DNA of 64,000 nucleotides from Allobosea sp. Root381 (GTDB lineage Bacteria; Pseudomonadota; Alphaproteobacteria; Rhizobiales; Beijerinckiaceae), in the NCBI RefSeq assembly GCF_001429395.1, contig NZ_LMJT01000043.1, positions 64,627-128,626 on the forward strand. The letters are read 5' to 3'. Made by a program: the position numbers and the translations under genes. The notes beneath the pieces are model-generated. The model saw nothing but the letters and a program-made list of their open reading frames with translations, did not search any database and was not told the origin of the DNA. Shown here piece after piece: positions 43,567-60,413 of the stretch. The first letter of the stretch is position 1; the number at the start of each line of letters is the position of its first letter.

Positions 43567-44967
43567 TCAACTCTCCCTGAAAGCACGATGAAGGCGTATC
43601 GCCAGCGGCTGGAGCAGATATTCCGCAAAGGTCCGCTCGCCGGTCTCGATGAATATCTCGACCGGCATTCCGGGCTGAAGCGAGACGAAAAAATGGCTGA
43701 GTTCCGGCGCCTGACGGAGGTCGACCTCGGCCTTGTAGAAGGATCTGCCCGTCCTCGCCTCGACCAGCGCATCGGGCGTGACCATGGTGACGGAGCCGGC
43801 GAGCATCGGCGTGCGCCGGGAGTTGAAGGCGAGGACGCGAACGCGTGCGTGCTGGCCGATCCGAACCTCGCTGCGGTCGATCGGCTTGACTTCCCCCTCG
43901 ACGACGAGGCGATCCTGCACCGGGACGATACCGAGCAACGTCTCGCGCGGCGGGAGCACGGCGTTGAGGCTGCGGGTATCGAGCCCGACGACGACACCGC
44001 TCTCCGGCGCCCTGATCTCGCTGCGCAGCAGCGTGTCCCGCGCGGCCGCGATGCGGTGCCTGAGATCGGCGATCTGCTCGCGGCTGCCGTGGCGCTGCTT
44101 GGCGATCTCCTGGAGGCGGTCATAGAGCAGCTGCCGGCGCTGTTCCTCCAGCTCGGCGAGCTTGCCCCGCGCCTGGGCGATGGAAGCCTCGTTCGTGGCG
44201 AATTGCGCCTCGGCCTCGGCTTCGGCCCGCTTGAGAGCGAGGATCTTCGGCTTGCGGGCGAGGCCCTTCTTCAGCAGGAACTCGGAATCCTTGATCTCCT
44301 CCCGGAGGAAGGCGAGCTGGCGTGTCAGCCCGGCATTGCTGCTCTCGGTCCCGCGGACCGTGTCGGCGAGCTGCTGAACCTGCTGATCGACGCGATTGCG
44401 CTGTCCCTGCAGGGCGGCCGCGCGGGCGGTGAACTCGGCGAGCTGGCTTTCCATCGCGGTCTGCGCCTCCGGCCGGGCACTCTGGACCTCCAGTTCCTCG
44501 GGGAACGAAATGGCGGTCGCCCCCGCTTGCTCCGCCTGCAGGCGGGCCTCCGAGGCGAGCGTGGCGAACAGGTTGGTCTCGAGCACGCCCAGCGCCGCTT
44601 CGCTCTGCGTCGTGTCGAGCCGCGCGAGAAGCTGGCCGCGCTCGACCCTCTCGCCCTCGCGAACCAGGATCGCCTTGACGATCCCGCCTTCCAGATGCTG
44701 CACGGCGCGCCGCTGCGACAGCACCTTCACGACGCCGGGCGCGATCACGGCACTGGCCAGCGGCACGGTCGCGGCCCAGGCGCCGAAGACACCGATCAGC
44801 AGCGCCAGGCAAATGCAGCCCCAGTATACGAACACCCCGGGATCGGTCCGGAGCGGCTCCTCGGCCGCATCCCAGCGCGCGAGCGCCGTGCGGAGCGGCT
44901 GGGCGAGCGCGGAACCCGCCACATCGGGTGGCTCCGGCTGCCGGGTCGTGAGGTCGGCCCCGGTCAT
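43567..44967 (-). CDS. Type I secretion membrane fusion protein, HlyD family
   Basis: A 466-residue periplasmic adaptor: cytoplasmic N-terminus about 1-45, one TM helix (YWGCICLALLIGVFGAWAAT), a lipoyl/biotinyl half (QHLEGGIVKAILVREGERVE), a long coiled-coil hairpin about 125-300, the second lipoyl half and the beta-barrel region ending near YLLQPLAIRLHRAF. It links the ABC ATPase to a TolC-type outer-membrane channel. Its ATG shares one base with the ATPase stop (TGATG). No TolC-like gene is in the window. Confidence 0.93.
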   Translation of the reverse strand: MTGADLTTRQPEPPDVAGSALAQPLRTALARWDAAEEPLRTDPGVFVYWGCICLALLIGVFGAWAATVPLASAVIAPGVVKVLSQRRAVQHLEGGIVKAILVREGERVERGQLLARLDTTQSEAALGVLETNLFATLASEARLQAEQAGATAISFPEELEVQSARPEAQTAMESQLAEFTARAAALQGQRNRVDQQVQQLADTVRGTESSNAGLTRQLAFLREEIKDSEFLLKKGLARKPKILALKRAEAEAEAQFATNEASIAQARGKLAELEEQRRQLLYDRLQEIAKQRHGSREQIADLRHRIAAARDTLLRSEIRAPESGVVVGLDTRSLNAVLPPRETLLGIVPVQDRLVVEGEVKPIDRSEVRIGQHARVRVLAFNSRRTPMLAGSVTMVTPDALVEARTGRSFYKAEVDLRQAPELSHFFVSLQPGMPVEIFIETGERTFAEYLLQPLAIRLHRAFRES

Positions 44968-46772
44968 CACGGCCTCCTGTCGATGCTGTTGCGCTTGGCC
45001 TTGGCGGGCCCGGCCGACGACCGGGTCCGCATCGGCGTGGCACCGGCCATGGTCTGCGGCAGCACCTCGTCCGGCGCGCCGAAGGCGACCGCGACGCCGT
45101 CCCGCAGGAACAGGACCAGATCCGCGACCGTGAAGATGCGCGGGCGGTGCGTAACGATGACCAGCGTCGTGCCGCGTTTCTTGGCCTGCCTGATCGCCGC
45201 GCAAAGCGCTTCCTCGCCGTCCGGATCGAGGTTCGAGTTGGGCTCGTCGAGGAGGATCAGCTTGCGCTTGCCGAAGAGCGCCCGCGCCAGGCCGATGCGC
45301 TGCCGCTGGCCGCCGGAGAGCCTGCAGCCGTCCTGGCCGATCTCGGTCTCGTAGCCGCCGGGCAGGCCGAGGATCATCTCATGCGCGTTCGCCTGCCGGG
45401 CGGCCGCCACCACATCCGCGTCGGTCGCGCCCTCGTCGAAACCGGCGATCGCTTCGGCGACCGTGCCGCCGAGCAGCTCGACATCCTGGGGCAGGTAACC
45501 GACATAGCGCCCGAGCTGGTCGGGGTCCCAGTTGTCGAGCGAGGCGCCGTCGAGGCGGATCGTCCCTCCCGACGGCCTGTCGAGCGCCGCGATCAGCCGC
45601 AGCAGCGTCGATTTGCCGGCGCCCGTCGGCCCGATCACGACGACCACGCTGGCCGGCGGGCAGCGGAAGGAAACGCCCGCAAGGGCCGGGCGCCTGGCAT
45701 TCTGGTTGCGATAGATGACACCGCTGACCTCGAGCGCCCCGAGCGGCGGGGGCAGCAGAGTCTTGCGCTGGTCGAGCGCGGCCGCGGCAGCCGCGACACG
45801 GACCTGGGCCCAGGCATCGCGCGCCGAACTCAGCACGCGCAGACTCGCCACCAGATGCTCGACCGGGGCGAGCGTACGGCTGATGATGATCGAGCTCGCC
45901 ATCATGCTACCGACCAGGACCTCGTCATGCAGGACGAGCCAGGCACCGGTGCCCACCGCCGCGATCTGGAGCACGATCCTGATCAGCCGCGCGACGGAGG
46001 CGATCAGCGCGACGCGGTCATTGGCCCGTACCACTGGCGCCAGGGCCCGGTTGTTGAGCTGCACGAATTCGCGGATCGCGCCATGCGTCCAGCCCATCGC
46101 CCGGACCAAATTGCCGTGCCGGACGATACCGTCGAGCGTGCGCTGGGCCCGGGCGGCGGCGCCCGTCGCCTGTGCCCGCTCGGCCCGCGCGACCCGTCCG
46201 CTGGCGACGGCCAACAGCAGCAGGAGCAGGGCTCCGACGAGGGCTATCGTCCCGTACCAGGGATGGATCAGGTAGAGCACGAGGATGAAGAGCGGCAGGA
46301 ACGGCGCGTCGATGAGCGTGCACGCGGTCGAGCTCGCCAGCATGTTCCTGAGCTCGCGCACGCGGACCATGTCGTGGGTGCCGCCCTCGCCCCGCCGTGC
46401 GGGATCGATGATCGAGGCCTTGAGCACGAGGGGCGCGAGGAACTGCTCGAGACCGACGGCGAAGCAGCCGAGCAACCGGTTGCGCAGCACCTCGAAGCAG
46501 GCGCTGAACCCGATCGCCGCCACGGCGAGGACGGTCAGGGCGATGAGCGTCTCGGCGCTGCCGCTGGTGATAACCCGGTCGAAGACCTGGATCGAGTAGA
46601 ACGGCAGGACCAGCAGCAGCAGGTTGACGACGATGCTGAAGACGACGACCCAAACGAAGGCCCCGCTTCCCGGAATCGCCGCCAAAAGCGCCCGCCCGCC
46701 CGGACTGGCCGTCTCGGCAGCCCTCCTCGGGTCGAACTCGGACGCCGTACGGCTCGCGGACGCGTAGGCCAT
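44967..46772 (-). CDS. Type I secretion system permease/ATPase (PrtD family)
   Basis: A 601-residue exporter: TM domain about 35-330 and nucleotide-binding domain about 355-575. Motifs: Walker A IGPTGAGKSTLLRL near 380, signature CRLSGGQRQRIGLARALF, Walker B KLILLDEPNSNLD. There is no C39 peptidase domain, as in PrtD exporters of RTX proteases and adhesins that carry C-terminal signals. The start at 46772 gives a short charged N-terminus. Divergent from the RTX gene, its likely cargo. Confidence 0.94.
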   Translation of the reverse strand: MAYASASRTASEFDPRRAAETASPGGRALLAAIPGSGAFVWVVVFSIVVNLLLLVLPFYSIQVFDRVITSGSAETLIALTVLAVAAIGFSACFEVLRNRLLGCFAVGLEQFLAPLVLKASIIDPARRGEGGTHDMVRVRELRNMLASSTACTLIDAPFLPLFILVLYLIHPWYGTIALVGALLLLLLAVASGRVARAERAQATGAAARAQRTLDGIVRHGNLVRAMGWTHGAIREFVQLNNRALAPVVRANDRVALIASVARLIRIVLQIAAVGTGAWLVLHDEVLVGSMMASSIIISRTLAPVEHLVASLRVLSSARDAWAQVRVAAAAAALDQRKTLLPPPLGALEVSGVIYRNQNARRPALAGVSFRCPPASVVVVIGPTGAGKSTLLRLIAALDRPSGGTIRLDGASLDNWDPDQLGRYVGYLPQDVELLGGTVAEAIAGFDEGATDADVVAAARQANAHEMILGLPGGYETEIGQDGCRLSGGQRQRIGLARALFGKRKLILLDEPNSNLDPDGEEALCAAIRQAKKRGTTLVIVTHRPRIFTVADLVLFLRDGVAVAFGAPDEVLPQTMAGATPMRTRSSAGPAKAKRNSIDRRP

Positions 46773-47440: not shown

Positions 47441-48904
47441 ATGGCACTCATCATTGGCACGCCAGGACCCGACGTCATTCCTCCGCCTGATACGAGCGGC
47501 GACGACCAGATCTTCGGCCTTCCGGGCGACGACAGCATCGACGCCGGCGCTGGTACGGACTTAGTCAATGGCGGGGCGGGCAACGACGCCATTCTGGGAG
47601 GCGCAGGCGTCGACACATTGAACGGCAATGCCGGCGATGACACGGTCAGCGGCGGTGACGACGACGACATCGTCAGCGGAAATGCCGGCAACGACATCCT
47701 GGCCGGCGACGCCGGCAACGACACCGTCAATGGCGGCGCGGGCGACGACACGCTCGACGGCGGCGAGGGCGACGACACGATGTCCGGAGGCGCCGGGATC
47801 GACACGATGACCGGCGGGGCCGGCATCGACACGATGACCGGCGGCGCGGGTGACGATACGCTCGATGGTGGCGAAGGCGACGACGACCTGACCGGCGGCG
47901 CTGGCAACGACACCTTGAACGGCGACGCCGGCAACGACACGCTGGCAGGTGGCATCGGCAACGATACGCTGACCGGCGGCGACGGCGACGACACCATCGG
48001 CGGCGGCGGTGGCGACGACACGCTCGACGGCGGCGCAGGCATCGATACGCTCAGCGGCGGGGACGGTGACGACGAACTCGATGGCGGCGCCGGCGACGAT
48101 GCGCTGACCGGCGGTGACGGCATCGACACCCTCGCTGGTGGAGAAGGCAACGACACGCTCGACGGTGGCGACGGTGACGACGACCTCGATGGCGGCGCTG
48201 GCGACGACGCGCTGACCGGCGGCGATGGCAACGATATCCTCGCCGGAGGCGATGGCATCGACACCCTGACCGGCGATGCCGGTGACGATGATCTGGATGG
48301 AGGCGCCGGCGACGACACGGTCGGTGGCGGTGAAGGCGCCGATACGCTCGCAGGCGGCGACGGTGCTGACATCGTGACCGGCGACGAAGGCGACGACACG
48401 ATGGCCGGCGGCGCGGGGGCCGACGAGCTCGACGGTGGCGACGGCGCCGACACGATCGAAGGCGGGGATGGAGCCGACATCGCGCTCGGCGGAGCAGGCG
48501 ATGACACGGTGAGCGGCGATGCCGGCGGCGACGAGCTCCGTGGCGGCGAAGGCGCCGACGAACTCGACGGCGGCAACGGCAGCGACGATCTCTATGGCGA
48601 GGCCGGCGACGATACCCTGACCGGCGGCGGCGGCACCGACACCTTCCATTTCGGTGACGGCGCCGACACCCCGTTCGGCGACGACGAGGTCACCGATCTG
48701 AGCGAGGGCGACGAGGACGTGATCGAGGTCGACGTGCTCGACCCCGCCACCACCACCGTCACCGTCGACGATTCCGGCGCCAGCGTGGTTCTGGATTTCG
48801 GCTTCGGCACGATCCAGATCGATGGCGTCACCGGCGGCGGCACCTTCGAATCGATCGAGGACATCAACGACGCGCTGGGATACGAGGCGATCACCTTGGT
48901 GTGA
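47441..48904 (+). CDS. RTX calcium-binding repeat protein, probable type I secretion substrate
   Basis: A 487-residue, very acidic protein made almost wholly of RTX nonapeptides (GGAGNDTLxGGxGxD) from about residue 24 to 400, interrupted by variants such as GGDGIDTL and GGAGDDDLDGG. The last ~85 residues (TDTFHFGDGADTPFGDDEVT onward to YEAITLV) form a hydrophobic-ending, beta-rich region expected to carry the uncleaved C-terminal signal. There is no N-terminal signal or separate enzyme domain, so it may be a Ca-dependent surface-layer or matrix protein. Divergent to its ABC/HlyD exporter. Confidence 0.93.
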   Translation: MALIIGTPGPDVIPPPDTSGDDQIFGLPGDDSIDAGAGTDLVNGGAGNDAILGGAGVDTLNGNAGDDTVSGGDDDDIVSGNAGNDILAGDAGNDTVNGGAGDDTLDGGEGDDTMSGGAGIDTMTGGAGIDTMTGGAGDDTLDGGEGDDDLTGGAGNDTLNGDAGNDTLAGGIGNDTLTGGDGDDTIGGGGGDDTLDGGAGIDTLSGGDGDDELDGGAGDDALTGGDGIDTLAGGEGNDTLDGGDGDDDLDGGAGDDALTGGDGNDILAGGDGIDTLTGDAGDDDLDGGAGDDTVGGGEGADTLAGGDGADIVTGDEGDDTMAGGAGADELDGGDGADTIEGGDGADIALGGAGDDTVSGDAGGDELRGGEGADELDGGNGSDDLYGEAGDDTLTGGGGTDTFHFGDGADTPFGDDEVTDLSEGDEDVIEVDVLDPATTTVTVDDSGASVVLDFGFGTIQIDGVTGGGTFESIEDINDALGYEAITLV

Positions 48905-52087: not shown

Positions 52088-52771
52088 TCAGACAGCGCCG
52101 ATCCGCGCGAGGCGGCGGACATGCTCGATGTCGTGGATCACCAGCCGTCCGCGCCCGAGCGAGAGAATGCCGCTGCGCTTCCAGCTCTGGAGTTGGCGGT
52201 TCACCGTCTCGCGCGTCACGCCGGTGAGCGATGCCAGCTCCTCCTGCGAGGCATGGACCTCGCTGCCATAGTCGATGGCGAGCGCAAGAATGCGCCGGGC
52301 GAGCCGCGTCTCGGCAGGGAGGAAGGTCGTCTCCTGCATGCGCTCGATCACGTCGCGCAGCCGGGCGCAGAGAAGCTCGATGAGATGCAGCGCGATCGCG
52401 GGCTCGCCCTCGAGCAGGCCGAGGAAGTCGCGCCGCGGCAGGAAGAGCATCTCGGTGCTTTCCAGCGCCACCGCATCGGCGGTCCGGGAGCGGCCGTCGA
52501 GCAGCGCGATCTCGCCGAAGACGTCACCGGCGCCGAGCAGGTTCATCGTCATCTGCTGCCCGAGATCGTCGGTCGTGCCGATGCGGATCAGGCCTCGCCG
52601 GATGGCATAAAGCCCGTCGCTCGCGTCACCCTTCAGGAAGAGGACCGCCCGCGCCGCGAGATGCTGCGGCCGGCAGATGCCGGCGATCCTGTCGAGCGTA
52701 TCCTGGGCCAGGCCGGCGAAGAACGGGTTCGCCGACAACAGGCTCGCAATGCGGCGGGGGTCATCGTTCAT
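52088..52771 (-). CDS. Crp/Fnr family transcriptional regulator
   Basis: A 227-residue regulator. N-terminal cNMP-binding fold with the phosphate-binding cassette VFGEIALLDGRSRTADAV near residues 75-95 (Gly-Glu and Arg-Thr pattern compatible with a cyclic nucleotide), a dimer helix, and C-terminal HTH (ASQEELASLTGVTRETVNRQ). No N-terminal Cys cluster is visible, so it is not a classic FNR. It is convergent with the receptor cyclase (12-nt gap), supporting a cAMP-response role. Confidence 0.9.
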   Translation of the reverse strand: MNDDPRRIASLLSANPFFAGLAQDTLDRIAGICRPQHLAARAVLFLKGDASDGLYAIRRGLIRIGTTDDLGQQMTMNLLGAGDVFGEIALLDGRSRTADAVALESTEMLFLPRRDFLGLLEGEPAIALHLIELLCARLRDVIERMQETTFLPAETRLARRILALAIDYGSEVHASQEELASLTGVTRETVNRQLQSWKRSGILSLGRGRLVIHDIEHVRRLARIGAV

Positions 52772-53426: not shown

Positions 53427-55175
53427 ATGCGACGCCATCTGACCGCCATCCTCGCAGCCGACGTCGTCGGGTATATGCGTCTGAGCGAGGCGGCCGAGGA
53501 GCCGACTCATCAACGCCTGATGAGCCTGCGCGCCAGCCTGATCGAGCCGCATGCACACGAGCATGGCGGGCGCATCGTCAAGAACACGGGCGACGGCTTC
53601 CTGGCGACGTTCGACAGCCCCGCGGGCGCGACGCATTGCGCCCTCTCGCTGCAGCGCGCGCTCTCCGCCGCGACGCAGGACCAGCCCCTGGCCCTGCGCA
53701 TCGCCTTTCGGATGGGCATCCACCTCGCCGACGTCATCGTCGAGGACGAGGACATCTTCGGCGACGGCGTCAACATCGCGGCGAGGCTGCAATCCTATGC
53801 CGAGCCGGGCGGCGTCATCGTGTCGGAAGCGATCTTCCGGCTGCTCGACGAGCCGGCGAGGGGGCTCGGTCTCGATATGGGCGAGATCTTCCTGCGCAAT
53901 CACCGGCAGCCCGTCCGCGTCTTCGCCCTGCGCGCCGACCCGGCGGCCGCGCCGGCGCGCAAGATCGGGGAGGAGGCGGTCGGCACCGACGCGCGGGCGT
54001 CCATCGCGGTGCTGCCCTTCCGGATGAGCGCGGTGCACAAGAGCCATCTCGCGGATGGCGTGGTCGATTCCATCATCCAGTCGCTGTCCGGCCTCAAGGA
54101 CCTCTTCGTGATCTCGCGCGGATCGACGCTGGAATACGGCCGGCGGCGGATCGACCCCGTGGCCGTCGGCCGCAAACTCGGCGTCCGCTACGTGATGGAC
54201 GGCTCGGTTGCCTTGTCGGAAGGGCGGATCCGGATCAGCACCGAGCTGATCGCGAACGAGAACGGTGCCGTGATCAGCGCCGACCACTATGACGGCGAGG
54301 TCCGCGAACTGTTCGAGCTGCAGGACCGCATCTCGCTGAAGCTCGTCCGGACGATCGCGCCGCATATCCGCGAGCGCGAGCTGCGGCAGGCGCTGCGCAA
54401 GCACCCGCAGAACATGACCGCCTACGACCTGCTGCTCCAGGCACTCGACCTGCTCTACAAGATGGATGTCGACAGCTTCGCGCGGGCGCGCGGCCTGCTT
54501 CAGCAGGCGATGGTGCTGGACCCGTCCTACGCGCCTTCCTTCACCTATGCCGCGCTCTGGCATGTCCTGCGCGTCGGCGAGCTCGGCTCGCCGGACCCGG
54601 ACGGCGATGCGAAGGCCGCCGTCGAGCGCGCCCGGGCGGCGATCGAGCGCGACGGCAACGACGCCCTCGCGCTTGCCGTCTACGGCCATGTCCAGGCCTA
54701 TCTGCTGCGCGACAGCGTCACCGCGCTGCGCTTCCTCGACCAGGCGATCGAGGCGGGGCCCAGCGTCGCGATGGCCTGGACGATGAGCAGCGCGGCGCGC
54801 GGCTTCGTCGGCAACGGCCCGCTGGCGGTGCAGCATGGCGAGAACGGACAGCGCCTGGCGCCGGCCGACCCCTACCGGTTCTGGCACGAGGGCATCCTCG
54901 CCCAAGCGCATTACATCGCTGGCGACTACGATCAGGCCGTGAGCTGGGCGCGCAGCGCCGTCGCCCATAACCCTTCAATCCGCTTTACATTGCGCACGCT
55001 TGCGGCAAGCTTGGCCGCAGCCGGCCGGATGACCGAGGCCACCGATGCTGCCGACCGGCTGATGCGGGTCCAACCCGACTTCCGCCTGACAGCCTATGCG
55101 CCGCGCTGCCCCTTCGCCCAGCCGATCCTCGAGCAATGGATCGGGCATCTGCGGGAAGCGGGACTGCCCAACTGA
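53427..55175 (+). CDS. Cytoplasmic class III adenylate cyclase with TolB-like and TPR domains
   Basis: A 582-residue soluble protein. Catalytic domain about 1-165: first metal Asp in AILAADVVGYMRLSE (near 11), RIVKNTGDGFLATF with both the Lys and the second Asp (near 55), and EDIFGDGVNIAARLQS with the Asp and Asn/Arg. Having the Lys and Asp supports ATP as substrate. A TolB-N-like domain follows (SIAVLPFRMSAVHKSHLADG, about 190-310), then helical TPR-type repeats (about 325-575) that may sense a protein partner. This is the rhizobial cya architecture. Start ATG 53427 is the conserved MRRHLTAILAADVVGY. Confidence 0.9.
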   Translation: MRRHLTAILAADVVGYMRLSEAAEEPTHQRLMSLRASLIEPHAHEHGGRIVKNTGDGFLATFDSPAGATHCALSLQRALSAATQDQPLALRIAFRMGIHLADVIVEDEDIFGDGVNIAARLQSYAEPGGVIVSEAIFRLLDEPARGLGLDMGEIFLRNHRQPVRVFALRADPAAAPARKIGEEAVGTDARASIAVLPFRMSAVHKSHLADGVVDSIIQSLSGLKDLFVISRGSTLEYGRRRIDPVAVGRKLGVRYVMDGSVALSEGRIRISTELIANENGAVISADHYDGEVRELFELQDRISLKLVRTIAPHIRERELRQALRKHPQNMTAYDLLLQALDLLYKMDVDSFARARGLLQQAMVLDPSYAPSFTYAALWHVLRVGELGSPDPDGDAKAAVERARAAIERDGNDALALAVYGHVQAYLLRDSVTALRFLDQAIEAGPSVAMAWTMSSAARGFVGNGPLAVQHGENGQRLAPADPYRFWHEGILAQAHYIAGDYDQAVSWARSAVAHNPSIRFTLRTLAASLAAAGRMTEATDAADRLMRVQPDFRLTAYAPRCPFAQPILEQWIGHLREAGLPN

Positions 55176-55242: not shown

Positions 55243-56268
55243 ATGACCGGCAACACCGGAAATACGGGCAATACCGGCAACACCGGAAACGCAGGCATCA
55301 GCGGGGACATGGGAGGCGGCTGGTTCGTGCCCGACAGGGCCGACTTCCCCTTCGTGATGGAGAGCCATCCGGCCGGCCTGCCGGCGCAGGGGCGCATCCG
55401 CGACCTGCGCCGGACGGTGCATATCCGCAGGGAGCCCGATACGGCCGCCGGCAAGATCAAGTTCCGCAGCGACGACGACGATCAGGCACCGTCGGTTCCG
55501 TTCGACGACAACAACTGGGGCGCTCGCTGGTATGCCTTCAAGGTGCTGGCGCATTTCGCCCGTACCTGGGACCCGGAGCCACTCTACCAGCCGTTGGCGG
55601 ACATCCTTCTCGCGCTCAACGGCGCCGTCGATCCCGCTGACGCAACTTCGCCGACGAAGCAGGAGGCTGAGATCGTCGCACTCTGCGCGATGGCGCGCGA
55701 CGAGCGCGCCTCGGCCATGGGCGAGATACTGAGCCAGGATGTCGAGTTCATCACGGCCTTCATGGAATTGCTGGCGATGACGCCCGGATCGCATCCGAAG
55801 ACCTTCCGGGTGCTGCACATCGCCAGCCTGCTCGCCTCCTACGCCGCGCTGCACTTCAAGCACGCGTTCAACCGGCCCCGGCCCTCCTGGGAATGCCCCG
55901 CGCTGCTGCCGCCAGTGCCCGTGCCGGGGCATTCGGCCTATCCGAGCGGACACGCGACGCAGGCCTGGCTGAGTGCCCTTTGCATCGGCCATGTGCTCGA
56001 CATCGTGCATCCGCCGCTGCCCGACGCCGACATCAAGGCCCTGACGGAGTCGGCAAAGGTGCTGGCATACCGCATCGCGCGCAACCGCGAGATCGCCGGC
56101 CTGCATTTCCCGAGCGATTCCGCCGCAGGTCGGCTGCTGGCGCAAGCGGTTTTCGACATCCTGATCGCCTGCCCAAGCGCACCGCTCCACTATGCCAACC
56201 AGCCTTTCGGCGATGCCGTCATCGCTGCGGCGCGGCGGGAATGGACGCCGGACAGGAGTTTCCCATGA
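55243..56268 (+). CDS. Vanadium-dependent haloperoxidase / PAP2-like phosphatase superfamily protein
   Basis: A 341-residue enzyme. The three vanadate/phosphate motifs are intact: K-x6-RP (KHAFNRPRP, about 206-214), PSGHA (about 235-239) and R-x5-H-x3-D (REIAGLHFPSD, about 281-292). The N-terminus is a short (TGN) repeat of 9-bp units (TGNTGNTGNTGNTGNAG), with no signal peptide. Fold members either oxidise halides with H2O2 or dephosphorylate lipids; the soluble form and ~340-residue size favour a haloperoxidase-like role, inferred. It is 67 nt after the TPR cyclase and overlaps the next gene by 4 nt. Confidence 0.83.
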   Translation: MTGNTGNTGNTGNTGNAGISGDMGGGWFVPDRADFPFVMESHPAGLPAQGRIRDLRRTVHIRREPDTAAGKIKFRSDDDDQAPSVPFDDNNWGARWYAFKVLAHFARTWDPEPLYQPLADILLALNGAVDPADATSPTKQEAEIVALCAMARDERASAMGEILSQDVEFITAFMELLAMTPGSHPKTFRVLHIASLLASYAALHFKHAFNRPRPSWECPALLPPVPVPGHSAYPSGHATQAWLSALCIGHVLDIVHPPLPDADIKALTESAKVLAYRIARNREIAGLHFPSDSAAGRLLAQAVFDILIACPSAPLHYANQPFGDAVIAAARREWTPDRSFP

Positions 56269-57296
56269 CCGCCGGTCAGCACGGCGCACGCAGTGGAACG
56301 GCGACGTCGCGCGTCATCCGGATCGAAACCTTCGGCGTGCCGGATGCCGATTTCGAGCCCGCCCGCGCATCCGACAGCGAGCTCGAGCGCTTCGGCTTGC
56401 CCACCCGCAAGGCGATGCGCGCGAATCCGCTGGCAGCGGCGTTCCGCGATGCCTTCCTGCAGCGGCCCGCCAGTGGCCGGCCGCTGCGCTTCCGTGCCGC
56501 CCTGCCCTGGCCCGTCGCGCCGGCGCCGGCGCCGATCACGCGGGGCGTCGCGGCGATCGCCTCGCAACCGGCGCAGAAGAGCGCCAACTGGTCCGGCGGC
56601 TATGTGACCCCGCGGGACGGGCAGAGTTTCGCTTCGGTGATGGGCCGCTGGAGGGTGCCGACCGTCTCCGTGCCGCTCGGCGGGAGCGAACCGGAATATC
56701 GCAGCTCGACCTGGATCGGCCTCGACGGCCAGCGCTTCTATCTCGACGCGTCGCTGCCACAGATCGGCACGAAGCAGCAATGCTGGCCCGGTTCGCCACG
56801 CAGGCAGCGCTATCGCACCTGGTTCCAGTGGTGGGCCCGCGGCCAGGCGACGGAGGAGCAGCCCCTGCGCCTGGCGATCTGCCCGGGCGACGAGGTCAGC
56901 GCGGTCATCACGGTGTTCGACGAGACATCCGTGATCTGCAACCTCAAGAACGAGACCCGAGGGCTGATGCTGGAAGCCTTCCGAGCCTTCGCGCCCGGCC
57001 CCTGCCGCATCAGCGGCGCGACGGCCGAATGGATCATGGAGCGCCCGAGCCCGGACGGGGCGGATGGCTGGGACGCCTTTCCCCTGCCCGTCTTCACGCC
57101 GTTCGCCTTCACCGGCTGCATCGCCGAGTCGCAAGCCTGGGGCAGCACCGCCCTGCAAGACCGCGACCTGGAGGGAGCGCGGTCGATCCGGATGTACGAG
57201 ATCGTTCCCCATCCGACGCAGGTTCGCACGATTTCGACAGCGCACCGCGTGCTCTTGCCGGTACAGAAGCTCGAACTGGAGTATGTTTCGCCGTAG
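56265..57296 (+). CDS. G1 family (eqolisin) glutamic endopeptidase homologue
   Basis: A 343-residue protein. After a ~100-residue N-terminal region lies the eqolisin core: SANWSGGYV (about 106-114), FASVMGRWRVPTVSVP, STWIGLDGQRFYLDA, RYRTWFQWWARG and AEWIMERPSPDG (about 254-265). The core matches NWGGA, TFTVP, WVGIDG, WYEWY and AEFIIEDF of scytalidoglutamic peptidase; Glu of AEWIMER is the catalytic Glu candidate and a Gln in SLPQIGT the catalytic Gln candidate. Family enzymes are acid proteases, mostly secreted. No signal peptide is visible. Translationally coupled to the haloperoxidase-like gene. Confidence 0.8.
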   Translation: MTAGQHGARSGTATSRVIRIETFGVPDADFEPARASDSELERFGLPTRKAMRANPLAAAFRDAFLQRPASGRPLRFRAALPWPVAPAPAPITRGVAAIASQPAQKSANWSGGYVTPRDGQSFASVMGRWRVPTVSVPLGGSEPEYRSSTWIGLDGQRFYLDASLPQIGTKQQCWPGSPRRQRYRTWFQWWARGQATEEQPLRLAICPGDEVSAVITVFDETSVICNLKNETRGLMLEAFRAFAPGPCRISGATAEWIMERPSPDGADGWDAFPLPVFTPFAFTGCIAESQAWGSTALQDRDLEGARSIRMYEIVPHPTQVRTISTAHRVLLPVQKLELEYVSP

Positions 57297-57356: not shown

Positions 57357-60300
57357 TCACACGCTCCTGCCGCTGCCCGAGCGCTCCTGCTGCCCGGCGC
57401 TCGCCGCGTTGTCGCGCAGCCGCTTGACCATCAGCCGCGTGACCGAAAGCGCCATCTGCGGGAATTCCGCGAGCAGCGCGAGGAAGACATCCTTGCGCAG
57501 CCTCAGCGCCTCGATCTCCGACGTCGCGACCACGCTGGCCGAGCGGGGATCGTCCGTGACCAGCCCCATCTCGCCGACGATGGCGTTCTGCGCCACCTGC
57601 GAGACGCGCAGCGGGCCGTCCCCGGCATCGATCACCACATCGGCCGTGCCGGAGAGCAGGACATAGGCCGCATCCGACTCGTCGCCCTGGCGAAACAGCA
57701 CGTCCCCCGCCGCGAAGACGGTGCGTTCGGCGGTGAAGGCGAGGAGCTTCAGCCGCGCCGTATCGAGACCGGCGAAGATGGGCACGCGCCGCAGCACGCG
57801 GATTTCGTCATTATCCGCCCGCTCTTCGGCAACGGGCGCCTGCCCCTCGGCCGCGGCCGGACGCACCGCCGCCAGGCGCGGCCCCTCGAAGGCGATGTGG
57901 AGATCATAGCCGTCGCCCAGCTTTAGCTCGCGGCCGGCGACGACGAGGCTCCGGCCCGCCATCGCGGCCCGGATGCGACCGAGGATCTGCCGTGCCTCGG
58001 TCCGGCCGAAGGCTCCCAGGGCATTGTCGAGAATGAGCAGTTGCGGCTGCTTGATCAGGCAGCGCGCCAGCGCGATCTGCGCCTTCATCACCGGGAAAAG
58101 CAGCCGTCCGGCGTAGCCCGCCGGCTGCTCCAGCCCACGCCGGTAGATCTCCCCGTCCAGGCCCAGTTCCGCCAGCGCGTCGCGGATCACCTCGTCGGCC
58201 GCGGCATGCGCCACCGGCCCGAACAGGAGGTTTTCGCGCAAGGGCGCCGCCGGACAGTAATGCTCCGGATCGTAGAAGGCGATCGCATGGGCGGATTCCG
58301 TCGAGGCCCTTTTGCGAAAGGCGGCGCGAGCCGCCAGGATCCGCTCCTCGACCGCCTCGTCGAGCAGGCCGAGACGGTGCCGCGGCTCGACATAGAGCAG
58401 CGAAAGCCCGATCAGCCGGGCGCGGTCTGCCTCGCCCGCCGTGCCGGCCTCGACGCGAGTGAGTGCGTCCCGATACTCCTCGAAATCCTCTGCCGCGATG
58501 AACGAGTACTGCTCGAACAGCACATGGCCGGGGGCGATATCGCGGAAGATCTCGAGCATCGTCGCGGCGATCCGCCGCCCGATCCAGGTGAGCGTCTCCG
58601 TCAGGCCGAGATCGGCCAGGACCTGCCGCGTCAGGGCGTGGCCAGCGAGGTTCGCCCCGAGCAGCGCCGGATCGACCGGCACGCCGAAGAGGATATTCTC
58701 GCCGATCGTGGCGTTGCGGGCATAGCGGGCCGGATCATAGGGCTCGACCACGGCACCAGCGCCGCTTTCAATGAGCCTGTCGCGGATGCGGGCGCGGATC
58801 TCGGGAATGCGCCGCACGATGTCGGCCGGGGTTGCGGGATCGAGCTTGGAGGCGAGCCCGAAGCGGAAGACCGGATCGGCGAGACCGGCGATGCGCAGCA
58901 CCTCGACCAGTTTCAGCTCGAGCTCGGCCTCGTTCGCCGCATGCGCCCGGCGCGGATCGATCGTCCAGCCGGCCGGGTTCACGACTTCGGGTGACACCCG
59001 GCGCAGGCCGTAGAGGATGTTGTCACGCAGGCTGGCGTCGAGGATGACGGGTTCCGGCCCGACATAGGCGATGGCGCGGCCGCGCGCCTCCGCCGGCAAG
59101 GCCGACAGAGCCAGACCGGCGATGGTTAGCGAGCCTTCGCTGGGCGCGATCGCCCCGCCGAGAAGCTGGGCCAGGATGCCCGCGCCTTCGCTCGCCCCGC
59201 CGGAGAGAGCGATGTGCCGTTGCAGCGGTAGCGACAGCGATATCCGGTCCAGCAGGAGGTCGCCGGCGGGGTTCACCACGCTCAGCCCACGCGCCACGAT
59301 CTCGCCCGTCTCGGGCAGGCGAACCGCGTTCTCGGCGTCCGCGCCGGCTTCGACCGGCGCAGCGGCGATCAGGGAGAACTGCTCGACCACCTGCTGGAAC
59401 TTGGCCTCGACATCCAGCCGCTGCTGGTCCCAGTCGATCAGCTCCTTCACCGGCGAGGGCAGATCGCGATAGGCGGCGATGACGGCGACGAGCTGGCCGA
59501 GATCGAGGCGGCCAGCGAGGGCAAAATAGCCGCCAACGGCGTAGAACAGAAAGGGCGTAACCTGGGCCAGCAGGTTGTTCAAAGCCTTGACCGCGAATTT
59601 GCGCCCATACAGCCGGTAGCGGATGCCGAAGAGCTGCTCCAACCGCTCGGCGACCTGGCTCTTCTCGACGGCCGAGGTCCCGTGGTTGGCGACTTCCGCC
59701 ATGGTTTCCACCACCTCGCCGACCTTGCCGGCGAAAGCCCGTGATGCGATCTGCCGCTGCCTGCCGAGGCGGATCTGCTCGCGCCGCAGACGCGGAATCA
59801 GGACGCCCTGGAGCAGGATCATGCCGACGGCGATCAGCCCGAGCGCGAGGTTCTGCAGCAGGATGAAAGCGATCGCCGTCAAAGCCTGGCCGGCGAGGAG
59901 GACCGGCTGCACGAAGGCATCGCCGACGAAACCGCCGATCGGCTCGACCTCGTCCTTGATGATCGTCGCAGCCTCCGACGGCCTGATGCGCCGCAGCGCC
60001 TCGGGCCTGGTGTTCAGCACGGCCGAGAACAGGTCGAGGCGCAGGCGCTGCAGCAGGCGCTCGCCGAGCGCGCCCTTGCGCATGTTGATGACGTATTTGA
60101 AGGCGCCGTTGATCAGGACCAGCAGCAGGAAGAGCCCGCACAGCGCGAAGAGATAGGACAGCCTGTCGAGCCCGATTCCCTCGAACAGGGTCCGCGGGCC
60201 GCCGAGCCAGTCCGGCAGCGGCAGGGCGACCCGGAACAGCCTCGCCGTCTCCCCCGCTTCGGCAAAGGCCCGCCCCTGCAGCGCGTCCGTGATGATGTAT

Positions 60301-60413
60301 CGCGGCACGTCGAGGGAGAAATAATAGAACGGGAACGACAGGACGACGAAGCAGAGAATCCAGATCTGCTCACGGCGGCTGTTGCGCCAGATGTAATCGA
60401 ACAAGCCGACCAC
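57357..60413 (-). CDS. Atypical ABC transporter protein with degenerate ATPase motifs and C-terminal cyclic-nucleotide-binding domain
   Basis: A 1018-residue protein. TM domain about 1-330 (helices near 15-35, 85-105, 170-205, 283-300) like ABC exporters. The expected Walker A (about 405-413) reads GGASEGAGI: no Lys-Ser/Thr. Walker B is LLILDNA (about 792-798) with Asn in place of the catalytic Glu, and the signature LSGGQ is replaced by LFPVMKAQ. About 300 extra residues separate A and B, with three [DE]N[IL]L[YF]G segments (about 465, 572, 728). The C-terminal ~145 residues (from about 873) form a cNMP-binding fold with GEMGLVTDDPRSASVV. GTG start. Probably unable to hydrolyse ATP; may act as a regulated scaffold or channel. 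Confidence 0.8.
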   Translation of the reverse strand: MVGLFDYIWRNSRREQIWILCFVVLSFPFYYFSLDVPRYIITDALQGRAFAEAGETARLFRVALPLPDWLGGPRTLFEGIGLDRLSYLFALCGLFLLLVLINGAFKYVINMRKGALGERLLQRLRLDLFSAVLNTRPEALRRIRPSEAATIIKDEVEPIGGFVGDAFVQPVLLAGQALTAIAFILLQNLALGLIAVGMILLQGVLIPRLRREQIRLGRQRQIASRAFAGKVGEVVETMAEVANHGTSAVEKSQVAERLEQLFGIRYRLYGRKFAVKALNNLLAQVTPFLFYAVGGYFALAGRLDLGQLVAVIAAYRDLPSPVKELIDWDQQRLDVEAKFQQVVEQFSLIAAAPVEAGADAENAVRLPETGEIVARGLSVVNPAGDLLLDRISLSLPLQRHIALSGGASEGAGILAQLLGGAIAPSEGSLTIAGLALSALPAEARGRAIAYVGPEPVILDASLRDNILYGLRRVSPEVVNPAGWTIDPRRAHAANEAELELKLVEVLRIAGLADPVFRFGLASKLDPATPADIVRRIPEIRARIRDRLIESGAGAVVEPYDPARYARNATIGENILFGVPVDPALLGANLAGHALTRQVLADLGLTETLTWIGRRIAATMLEIFRDIAPGHVLFEQYSFIAAEDFEEYRDALTRVEAGTAGEADRARLIGLSLLYVEPRHRLGLLDEAVEERILAARAAFRKRASTESAHAIAFYDPEHYCPAAPLRENLLFGPVAHAAADEVIRDALAELGLDGEIYRRGLEQPAGYAGRLLFPVMKAQIALARCLIKQPQLLILDNALGAFGRTEARQILGRIRAAMAGRSLVVAGRELKLGDGYDLHIAFEGPRLAAVRPAAAEGQAPVAEERADNDEIRVLRRVPIFAGLDTARLKLLAFTAERTVFAAGDVLFRQGDESDAAYVLLSGTADVVIDAGDGPLRVSQVAQNAIVGEMGLVTDDPRSASVVATSEIEALRLRKDVFLALLAEFPQMALSVTRLMVKRLRDNAASAGQQERSGSGRSV

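Follow-up and report, generated by a model that had tools for sequence, protein, structure and literature searches.

The 64,000-nucleotide stretch of Allobosea sp. Root381 analysed here (contig NZ_LMJT01000043.1, positions 64,627 to 128,626; hereafter the window) carries on its minus strand a gene (57357-60413, GTG start in the ORF list) whose 1018-residue product resembles an ABC exporter fused to a cyclic-nucleotide-binding domain (CNB). Our preferred reading, to which we give a probability of about 0.42, is that this protein arose from an ABC exporter and works as a membrane module that is gated by a cyclic nucleotide and independent of ATP. Independence from ATP is suggested by the loss of the ATPase residues in a retained nucleotide-binding-domain (NBD) fold, by conservation that is inverted relative to ordinary exporters, by relatives consisting of the membrane domain only and by the precedent of SbmA. 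Gating is suggested by conservation of the phosphate-binding cassette near the window, by the presence of a CNB in 141 of 147 loci and by nucleotide cyclases at 48 of the 147.

Predicted pseudo-ATPase fused to a CNB

AlphaFold2 predicted the window protein with a mean pLDDT of 87.8, and Pfam found all three domains that an earlier interpretation of the bare DNA letters (the sequence-only reading) had proposed to look for: ABC_membrane (PF00664, residues 91-313, E 7e-11, 42.7 bits against a cut-off of 28), a weak ABC_tran match (residues 691-798, E 1e-7) and cNMP_binding (PF00027, residues 899-983, E 4e-19). The NBD fold is present despite the loss of its motifs. Residues 865-986 matched a solved chain of 131 residues (5d1i, E 8e-21) and the cassette reads GEMGLVTDDPRSA, which bears out the C-terminal cNMP fold with an intact phosphate cassette claimed in that reading. 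A decaying pseudogene and a sequencing artefact were ruled out, because the closest listed protein is 91% identical over its full length and the family is broad with conserved frame and residues.

The window protein has GGASEGAGI at Walker A, LFPVM at the signature position, LLILDNA at Walker B and Gly in place of His at the H-loop; the Q-loop Gln is also gone. The losses at the H-loop and Q-loop go beyond those that the sequence-only reading had listed. In an alignment of 201 rows including the query (200 covering the motifs, some near-identical), Lys plus Ser/Thr at Walker A was found in 0/200 rows, a P-loop anywhere in 0/201, the Walker B Asp-Glu in 3/200 and His in the H-loop column in 0/200, with two rows having His one column on. 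The claimed losses at Walker A, the Walker B Glu and LSGGQ thus held, and we regard the window protein as a putative pseudo-ATPase, supported at the level of its sequence.

The sequence-only reading had named homologues with intact Walker motifs in the same columns as evidence that would speak against it, and this turned out to be half the case. The 120 best matches of the window protein include none with a P-loop. A distant locus (L168) has an intact Walker A, and 35 of the 120 further proteins listed in a search with it carry a P-loop in the same columns, none with an LSGGQ-like signature there; P-loop loss is therefore not family-wide. Among 386 distinct family proteins, simple regular expressions, by which odd cases may be missed or over-counted, found a P-loop in 36, an LSGGQ-like motif in seven (some of them by chance, since every position beyond residue 350 was counted), both in none, and a P-loop together with a hydrophobic-Asp-Glu motif in five. 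By these patterns, the signature appears degenerate nearly throughout the family and the P-loop appears to have been lost in the window's lineage.

The spacing from Walker A to Walker B is ca. 380 residues, which is 270-290 more than is usual in ABC ATPases and agrees with the ca. 300 extra residues noted previously. The insert of ca. 290 residues repeats the post-Q-loop segment two more times. Comparison of the repeat profiles gave 90% (u1-u2), 98% (u2-u3) and 97% (u1-u3), with five controls below 1%, and one Asn per repeat (Asn465, Asn573 and Asn728) is invariant in 201/201 rows. A count of ENI-like motifs by text pattern in the 386 proteins gave three of them in 246 proteins and two in 107, with 19 proteins having one, 13 having four and one having none; the third copy is thus not always recognisable in this way.

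Family range, inverted conservation and membrane-only relatives

A protein search returned 1595 proteins at E ≤ 1e-3, and the best 120 listed were 45-91% identical to the query; a precomputed CNB domain was present in 112 of these 120 and absent in eight. A genome scan matched at least 594 stretches, of which 552 were confirmed and 80 kept as named loci. The insert profile matched at least 31 of the 398 genomes searched in the phylum, every one of them from the window's class, and at least 97 of 297 genomes of its order, these being lower bounds as the top five or seven candidates per genome were scored. A few metagenome-assembled genomes labelled beta- or gammaproteobacterial also carry a member. 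The family is large and mainly alphaproteobacterial.

Mean pairwise identity among 103 family sequences (1500 random pairs) was 59.9% in the membrane domain, 37.2 and 35.6% in the NBD core and 39.3% in the insert; that of the CNB was 55.9% (381 pairs). Ordinary exporters (10 found, 7 distinct, 21 pairs) gave 18.6% for the membrane domain and 36.8% for the NBD, a set more divergent overall, for which the ratio of membrane domain to NBD is the comparison meant. Judged by these values, conservation appears inverted versus ordinary exporters, with the membrane domain above the NBD.

Eleven membrane-domain-only proteins were found in 10 of 142 genomes of the class. All 10 genomes also hold a full-length member, which is present in 43 of the 142 (P = 3e-6, relatedness ignored). 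Eight of these proteins (L134-L141, 304-413 residues) scored 111-277 bits with the membrane profile of the family, while two of five ordinary exporters scored 32 and 21 bits and the others were absent from the matches at E ≤ 10. No NBD-like ORF was found by P-loop pattern in ca. 8 kb around each of the 8 of 11 genes examined; two ORFs there had a P-loop-like pattern and neither looked ABC-like (pattern only, no Pfam scan). The membrane-only proteins are not monophyletic in the membrane-domain tree, whose root is unsure because the outgroup branches are very long; the row named canon_cydD in this tree is a type I secretion ABC protein.

The possibility that the nearest kin is a closely related ABC exporter with all its motifs intact was considered and rejected. 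Searching the 142 class genomes with the membrane domain at E ≤ 1e-12 gave a single match of ordinary length (618 residues, 51 bits), the remaining matches being full-length members, pieces (such as that of G520, split over contigs) and membrane-only proteins.

The CNB and nucleotide cyclases

In a wider set of 147 loci, in which a few genomes were entered under two handles (e.g. L015 and L195), a CNB was found in 141, fused in 22 and otherwise usually in the next gene. Both gene order and fusion link the CNB to the ABC part. The fused or separate state changed three times on the tree, and at least two changes are forced by supported branches; gains and losses were not distinguished. Near the window, Glu948 and Arg957 of the cassette occur in 119/119 fused rows and each in 65/69 separate rows (one lacking row counted twice). 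By a four-residue rule, the cassette was intact in 119 of the 141 CNBs of the wider set.

In 48 of the 147 loci, a nucleotide cyclase is encoded on one or the other strand between -0.4 and +4 kb from the CNB in the downstream direction. Seventeen cyclases were classed as CyaC-like, scoring above 600 bits against a profile of ten such proteins; cyclase and cassette were both intact in eight of these loci and both decayed in nine, so that all 17 agree, some of them being near-identical pairs (Fisher value 4e-5, which ignores relatedness, the agreement going back to one event). Pfam, run on three of the 17, found Fer2 in all three and the cyclase domain in all three, just under the cut-off in L026. 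CyaC of Sinorhizobium meliloti, to which these cyclases are not necessarily orthologous, has a similar make-up. CyaC answers to respiratory quinones, and its gene neighbours named in that source are transcriptional regulators, unlike those of the loci here (PMC10463352). Control by a cyclic nucleotide, probably cAMP, is therefore probable on the strength of the cassette near the window and of the cyclases, in line with the sequence-only reading; the wider set is less clean.

The window itself holds a class III cyclase with tetratricopeptide (TPR) repeats, possibly the source of the CNB ligand. The association is weak, since such a cyclase was found near a family gene in 2 of 89 sources, the window and L009. 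A Crp-type regulator with a CNB and a helix-turn-helix (52088-52771) adjoins this cyclase, whose product therefore has a second possible reader.

Two groups of members differ around the CNB. L123-L128 are distant fused members with atypical cassettes; they come from three genomes, two of which hold two or three copies each, and the CNBs of these members may sense another ligand. P0157, P0164, P0165, P0174 and P0209 are longer (1170-1189 residues) and carry a C-terminal GGDEF-family domain after the CNB; the motif [GAS]G[DE]EF was found in 0/5 of them.

Gene neighbourhoods

Neighbours were counted in 89 sources, namely the 80 named loci, two of the window's own genome, six distant ones and the window, in flanks of up to 6 kb, so that the counts are lower bounds. 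The neighbour families were GT4b (43), GT28a (42), GT28d (36), GT4c (31), methyltransferase (18) and matches to the CyaC-like cyclase query (14), and at least one glycosyltransferase stands beside 47 of the 80 named loci. The surroundings of the unfused relatives point to glycan synthesis. The ion pathway suggested in the sequence-only reading was not borne out: no result points to ions, and nothing was found in favour of an ion channel.

A second, unfused copy in the same genome (contig 12, G000:C12:237000-257000; L091, L092) is 51% and 39% identical in two segments. It is surrounded by glycosyltransferases, a peptide-type ABC transporter operon and a decayed CyaC-like cyclase, its CNB is without the cassette Arg, and it belongs to the nine cases in which cyclase and cassette are both decayed. 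The window copy is thus a fused paralogue with its cassette kept, and the unfused copy lies in a glycan cluster with decayed cyclase and cassette. The neighbours of the window gene are TctCBA, an A4 peptidase, a PAP2 protein and the TPR cyclase; the peptidase (eqolisin-type, 56241-57296) is convergent and ends 60 bases from the pseudo-ABC gene.

On pSymB of S. meliloti R28, three glycosyltransferases are followed by the orthologue and its CNB (annotated Crp/Fnr), with a methyltransferase on the opposite strand between them; upstream lie a cyclase (ca. 12 kb away), a polysaccharide lyase, a polysaccharide deacetylase and a polysaccharide island. Judging from the annotation, we infer that this island is the nodP2-smb21248 cluster, seven genes of which are activated by the cAMP-dependent Clr, an effect that may be indirect according to its authors (PMC5498481). 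The S. meliloti msbA2 operon was considered as a described orthologue and provisionally set aside, as its published order (acyltransferase, two glycosyltransferases, msbA2) differs from that in R28. In R. etli CIAT 652, two of the genes upstream are named redA and redB.

Interpretation and alternative explanations

The proposed module could work as follows. cAMP from a cyclase would bind the CNB, the bound CNB would move the dead NBD pair, and this pair would, via its coupling surface, open, close or organise the membrane domain. For the unfused relatives we more tentatively suggest that the neighbouring glycosyltransferases may make the cargo or partner, a surface glycan or glycolipid. This compound might flow down its own gradient, be driven by an ion gradient or be handed over by the synthases.

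Several observations weigh against this interpretation. Since 36 of the 386 homologues retain a P-loop, nucleotide binding may persist in some lineages. The insert, folded alone, gave no match to a solved structure at E ≤ 0.001 in a fold search. Glycosyltransferases are found in the flanks of none of the 11 named fused loci (L009-L016, L020, L021 and L028), nor in those of the window, so that the link to glycans rests on the unfused relatives. A strictly intact cassette is lacking in 22 of the 141 CNBs, including 7 of the 22 fused ones (L123-L128 and L166), and no CNB was found adjoining the ABC gene in L190-L194, which all come from one genus of the window's family. The agreement of cyclase and cassette in the 17 CyaC-like loci counts as one evolutionary event because the nine decayed cases form one clade. 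Of the other 31 cyclases, 24 do not satisfy a strict residue rule, 20 of them because Lys replaces Arg, and the cassette is intact at 23 of these 24 loci.

The main competitor, which we regard as somewhat unlikely, is a scaffold that transports nothing: the dead ABC fold would serve as a membrane platform, switched by a cyclic nucleotide, for recruiting or regulating enzymes such as glycosyltransferases. The large insert without a structural match, the three invariant Asn residues and the glycosyltransferases beside 47 of the 80 named loci are all consistent with such a role, and many pseudoenzymes are known to serve as scaffolds, but conservation is highest in the membrane domain, which has invariant residues throughout, and a mere anchor would not need this. 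Transport and scaffold are hard to separate. Starting from the gated module, we also envisage, with still more reserve, a new class of second-messenger-gated secondary transporters in which ATP was swapped for cAMP gating; here, the dead NBD, enlarged by the two extra copies of the post-Q-loop segment, would relay the movement of the CNB and control surface-glycan export, coupled to respiration via the redox-type cyclase.

That the protein is still a nucleotide machine, binding ATP or another nucleotide in a non-canonical way or pairing with an intact ABC half-transporter, seems improbable: the P-loop in 36 of the 386 homologues, five of them with a hydrophobic-Asp-Glu motif, would fit, but a P-loop and an LSGGQ-like motif never occur together in the 386, the 120 best matches of the window protein have no P-loop, and the membrane-only relatives examined (8 of 11) are without an evident NBD gene nearby. 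We think it more improbable still that the CNB senses a ligand other than cAMP or cGMP, such as the ppGpp bound by the CNB of HetC, which cAMP did not significantly stabilise (PMC10986499): nearly all CNB rows near the window retain Glu and Arg in the cassette, and 48 of the 147 loci have a class III cyclase no more than 4 kb downstream.

With type IV (formerly type I) ABC exporters such as MsbA, Sav1866 and TM287/288, the window protein has the membrane-domain and NBD folds in common; it differs from them in lacking a functional Walker A, a functional signature, the Walker B Glu and the H-loop His, in its insert and in its inverted conservation. SbmA/BacA (SLiPT) secondary peptide transporters have an ABC-type membrane domain without ATP hydrolysis; SbmA is driven by protons and sets a precedent for uncoupling from ATP, a similar evolutionary step (PMC13316013). 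SbmA has no NBD, a feature shared by the membrane-only relatives, whereas the window protein keeps a dead NBD plus a CNB. In the Pfam scan of the window protein, no SbmA/BacA family matched, PF00664 being the sole membrane-domain family at E ≤ 0.1. HetC of Nostoc is an ABC exporter with a fused CNB that is needed for function there, but it has a C39 peptidase, an essential ATPase residue and an N-terminal CNB (PMC10986499), whereas the CNB of the window protein is C-terminal and none of the three Pfam families found in it is a C39 or other peptidase.

The pieces are thus known singly, as CNB-ABC exporters (HetC) and as ABC membrane domains without ATP (SbmA). In the open-access literature searched, no description of this family was recognised, nor was a case met in which a messenger sensor and membrane-only relatives go together with a conserved dead NBD that has extra repeats; SbmA-type proteins were the one case met there of an ABC-type membrane domain that left ATP. 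The family of the window protein retains an NBD that has lost its chemistry, bears a messenger sensor and includes intermediates with the P-loop kept and the signature lost, so that roles of the NBD besides hydrolysis become directly testable. It also offers a possible non-transcriptional target of cAMP in rhizobia and their kin.

Features of the window

Table 1 Features of the putative pseudo-ATPase gene and of the nearby cyclase gene (window positions; residues of the 1018-residue protein)
Feature	Position	Strand	Evidence
Whole gene, putative pseudo-ATPase of ABC-exporter type fused to CNB	57357..60413	-	ORF; Pfam; 1595 proteins at E ≤ 1e-3 (best 120 listed); AlphaFold2 pLDDT 87.8
Transmembrane domain, residues 1-345	59379..60413	-	PF00664 at 91-313; 60% mean pairwise identity, 103 sequences
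NBD fold including insert, residues 365-855	57849..59321	-	
Degenerate Walker A GGASEGAGI, residues 405-413	59175..59201	-	Lys plus Ser/Thr in 0/200 rows
Repeat 1, Q-loop/ENI segment, residues 449-469, Gln lost	59007..59069	-	Asn465 in 201/201 rows
Insert, residues 475-710	58284..58991	-	Extra copies of post-Q-loop segment, profile comparison
Repeat 2, residues 556-577	58683..58748	-	Asn573 in 201/201 rows
Repeat 3, residues 711-732	58218..58283	-	Asn728 in 201/201 rows
Degenerate ABC signature LFPVM, residues 772-776	58086..58100	-	Alignment and motif count
Walker B remnant LLILDN, residues 792-797, Asn for Glu	58023..58040	-	Asp-Glu in 3/200 rows
CNB, residues 869-1003	57405..57809	-	PF00027; solved-chain match 5d1i
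Phosphate-binding cassette GEMGLVTDDPRSA, residues 947-959	57537..57575	-	Glu948 and Arg957 in 119/119 fused rows, each in 65/69 separate rows
Class III nucleotide cyclase with TPR repeats, ca. 2.2 kb from the gene	53427..55175	+	PF00211; catalytic D, K, D, D, N, R present

Elsewhere in the window, an ABC protein (44967-46772) and an HlyD-like protein (43567-44970) form a type I secretion pair. A repeat-rich protein (47441-48904), which looks RTX-like from its motif, adjoins this pair.

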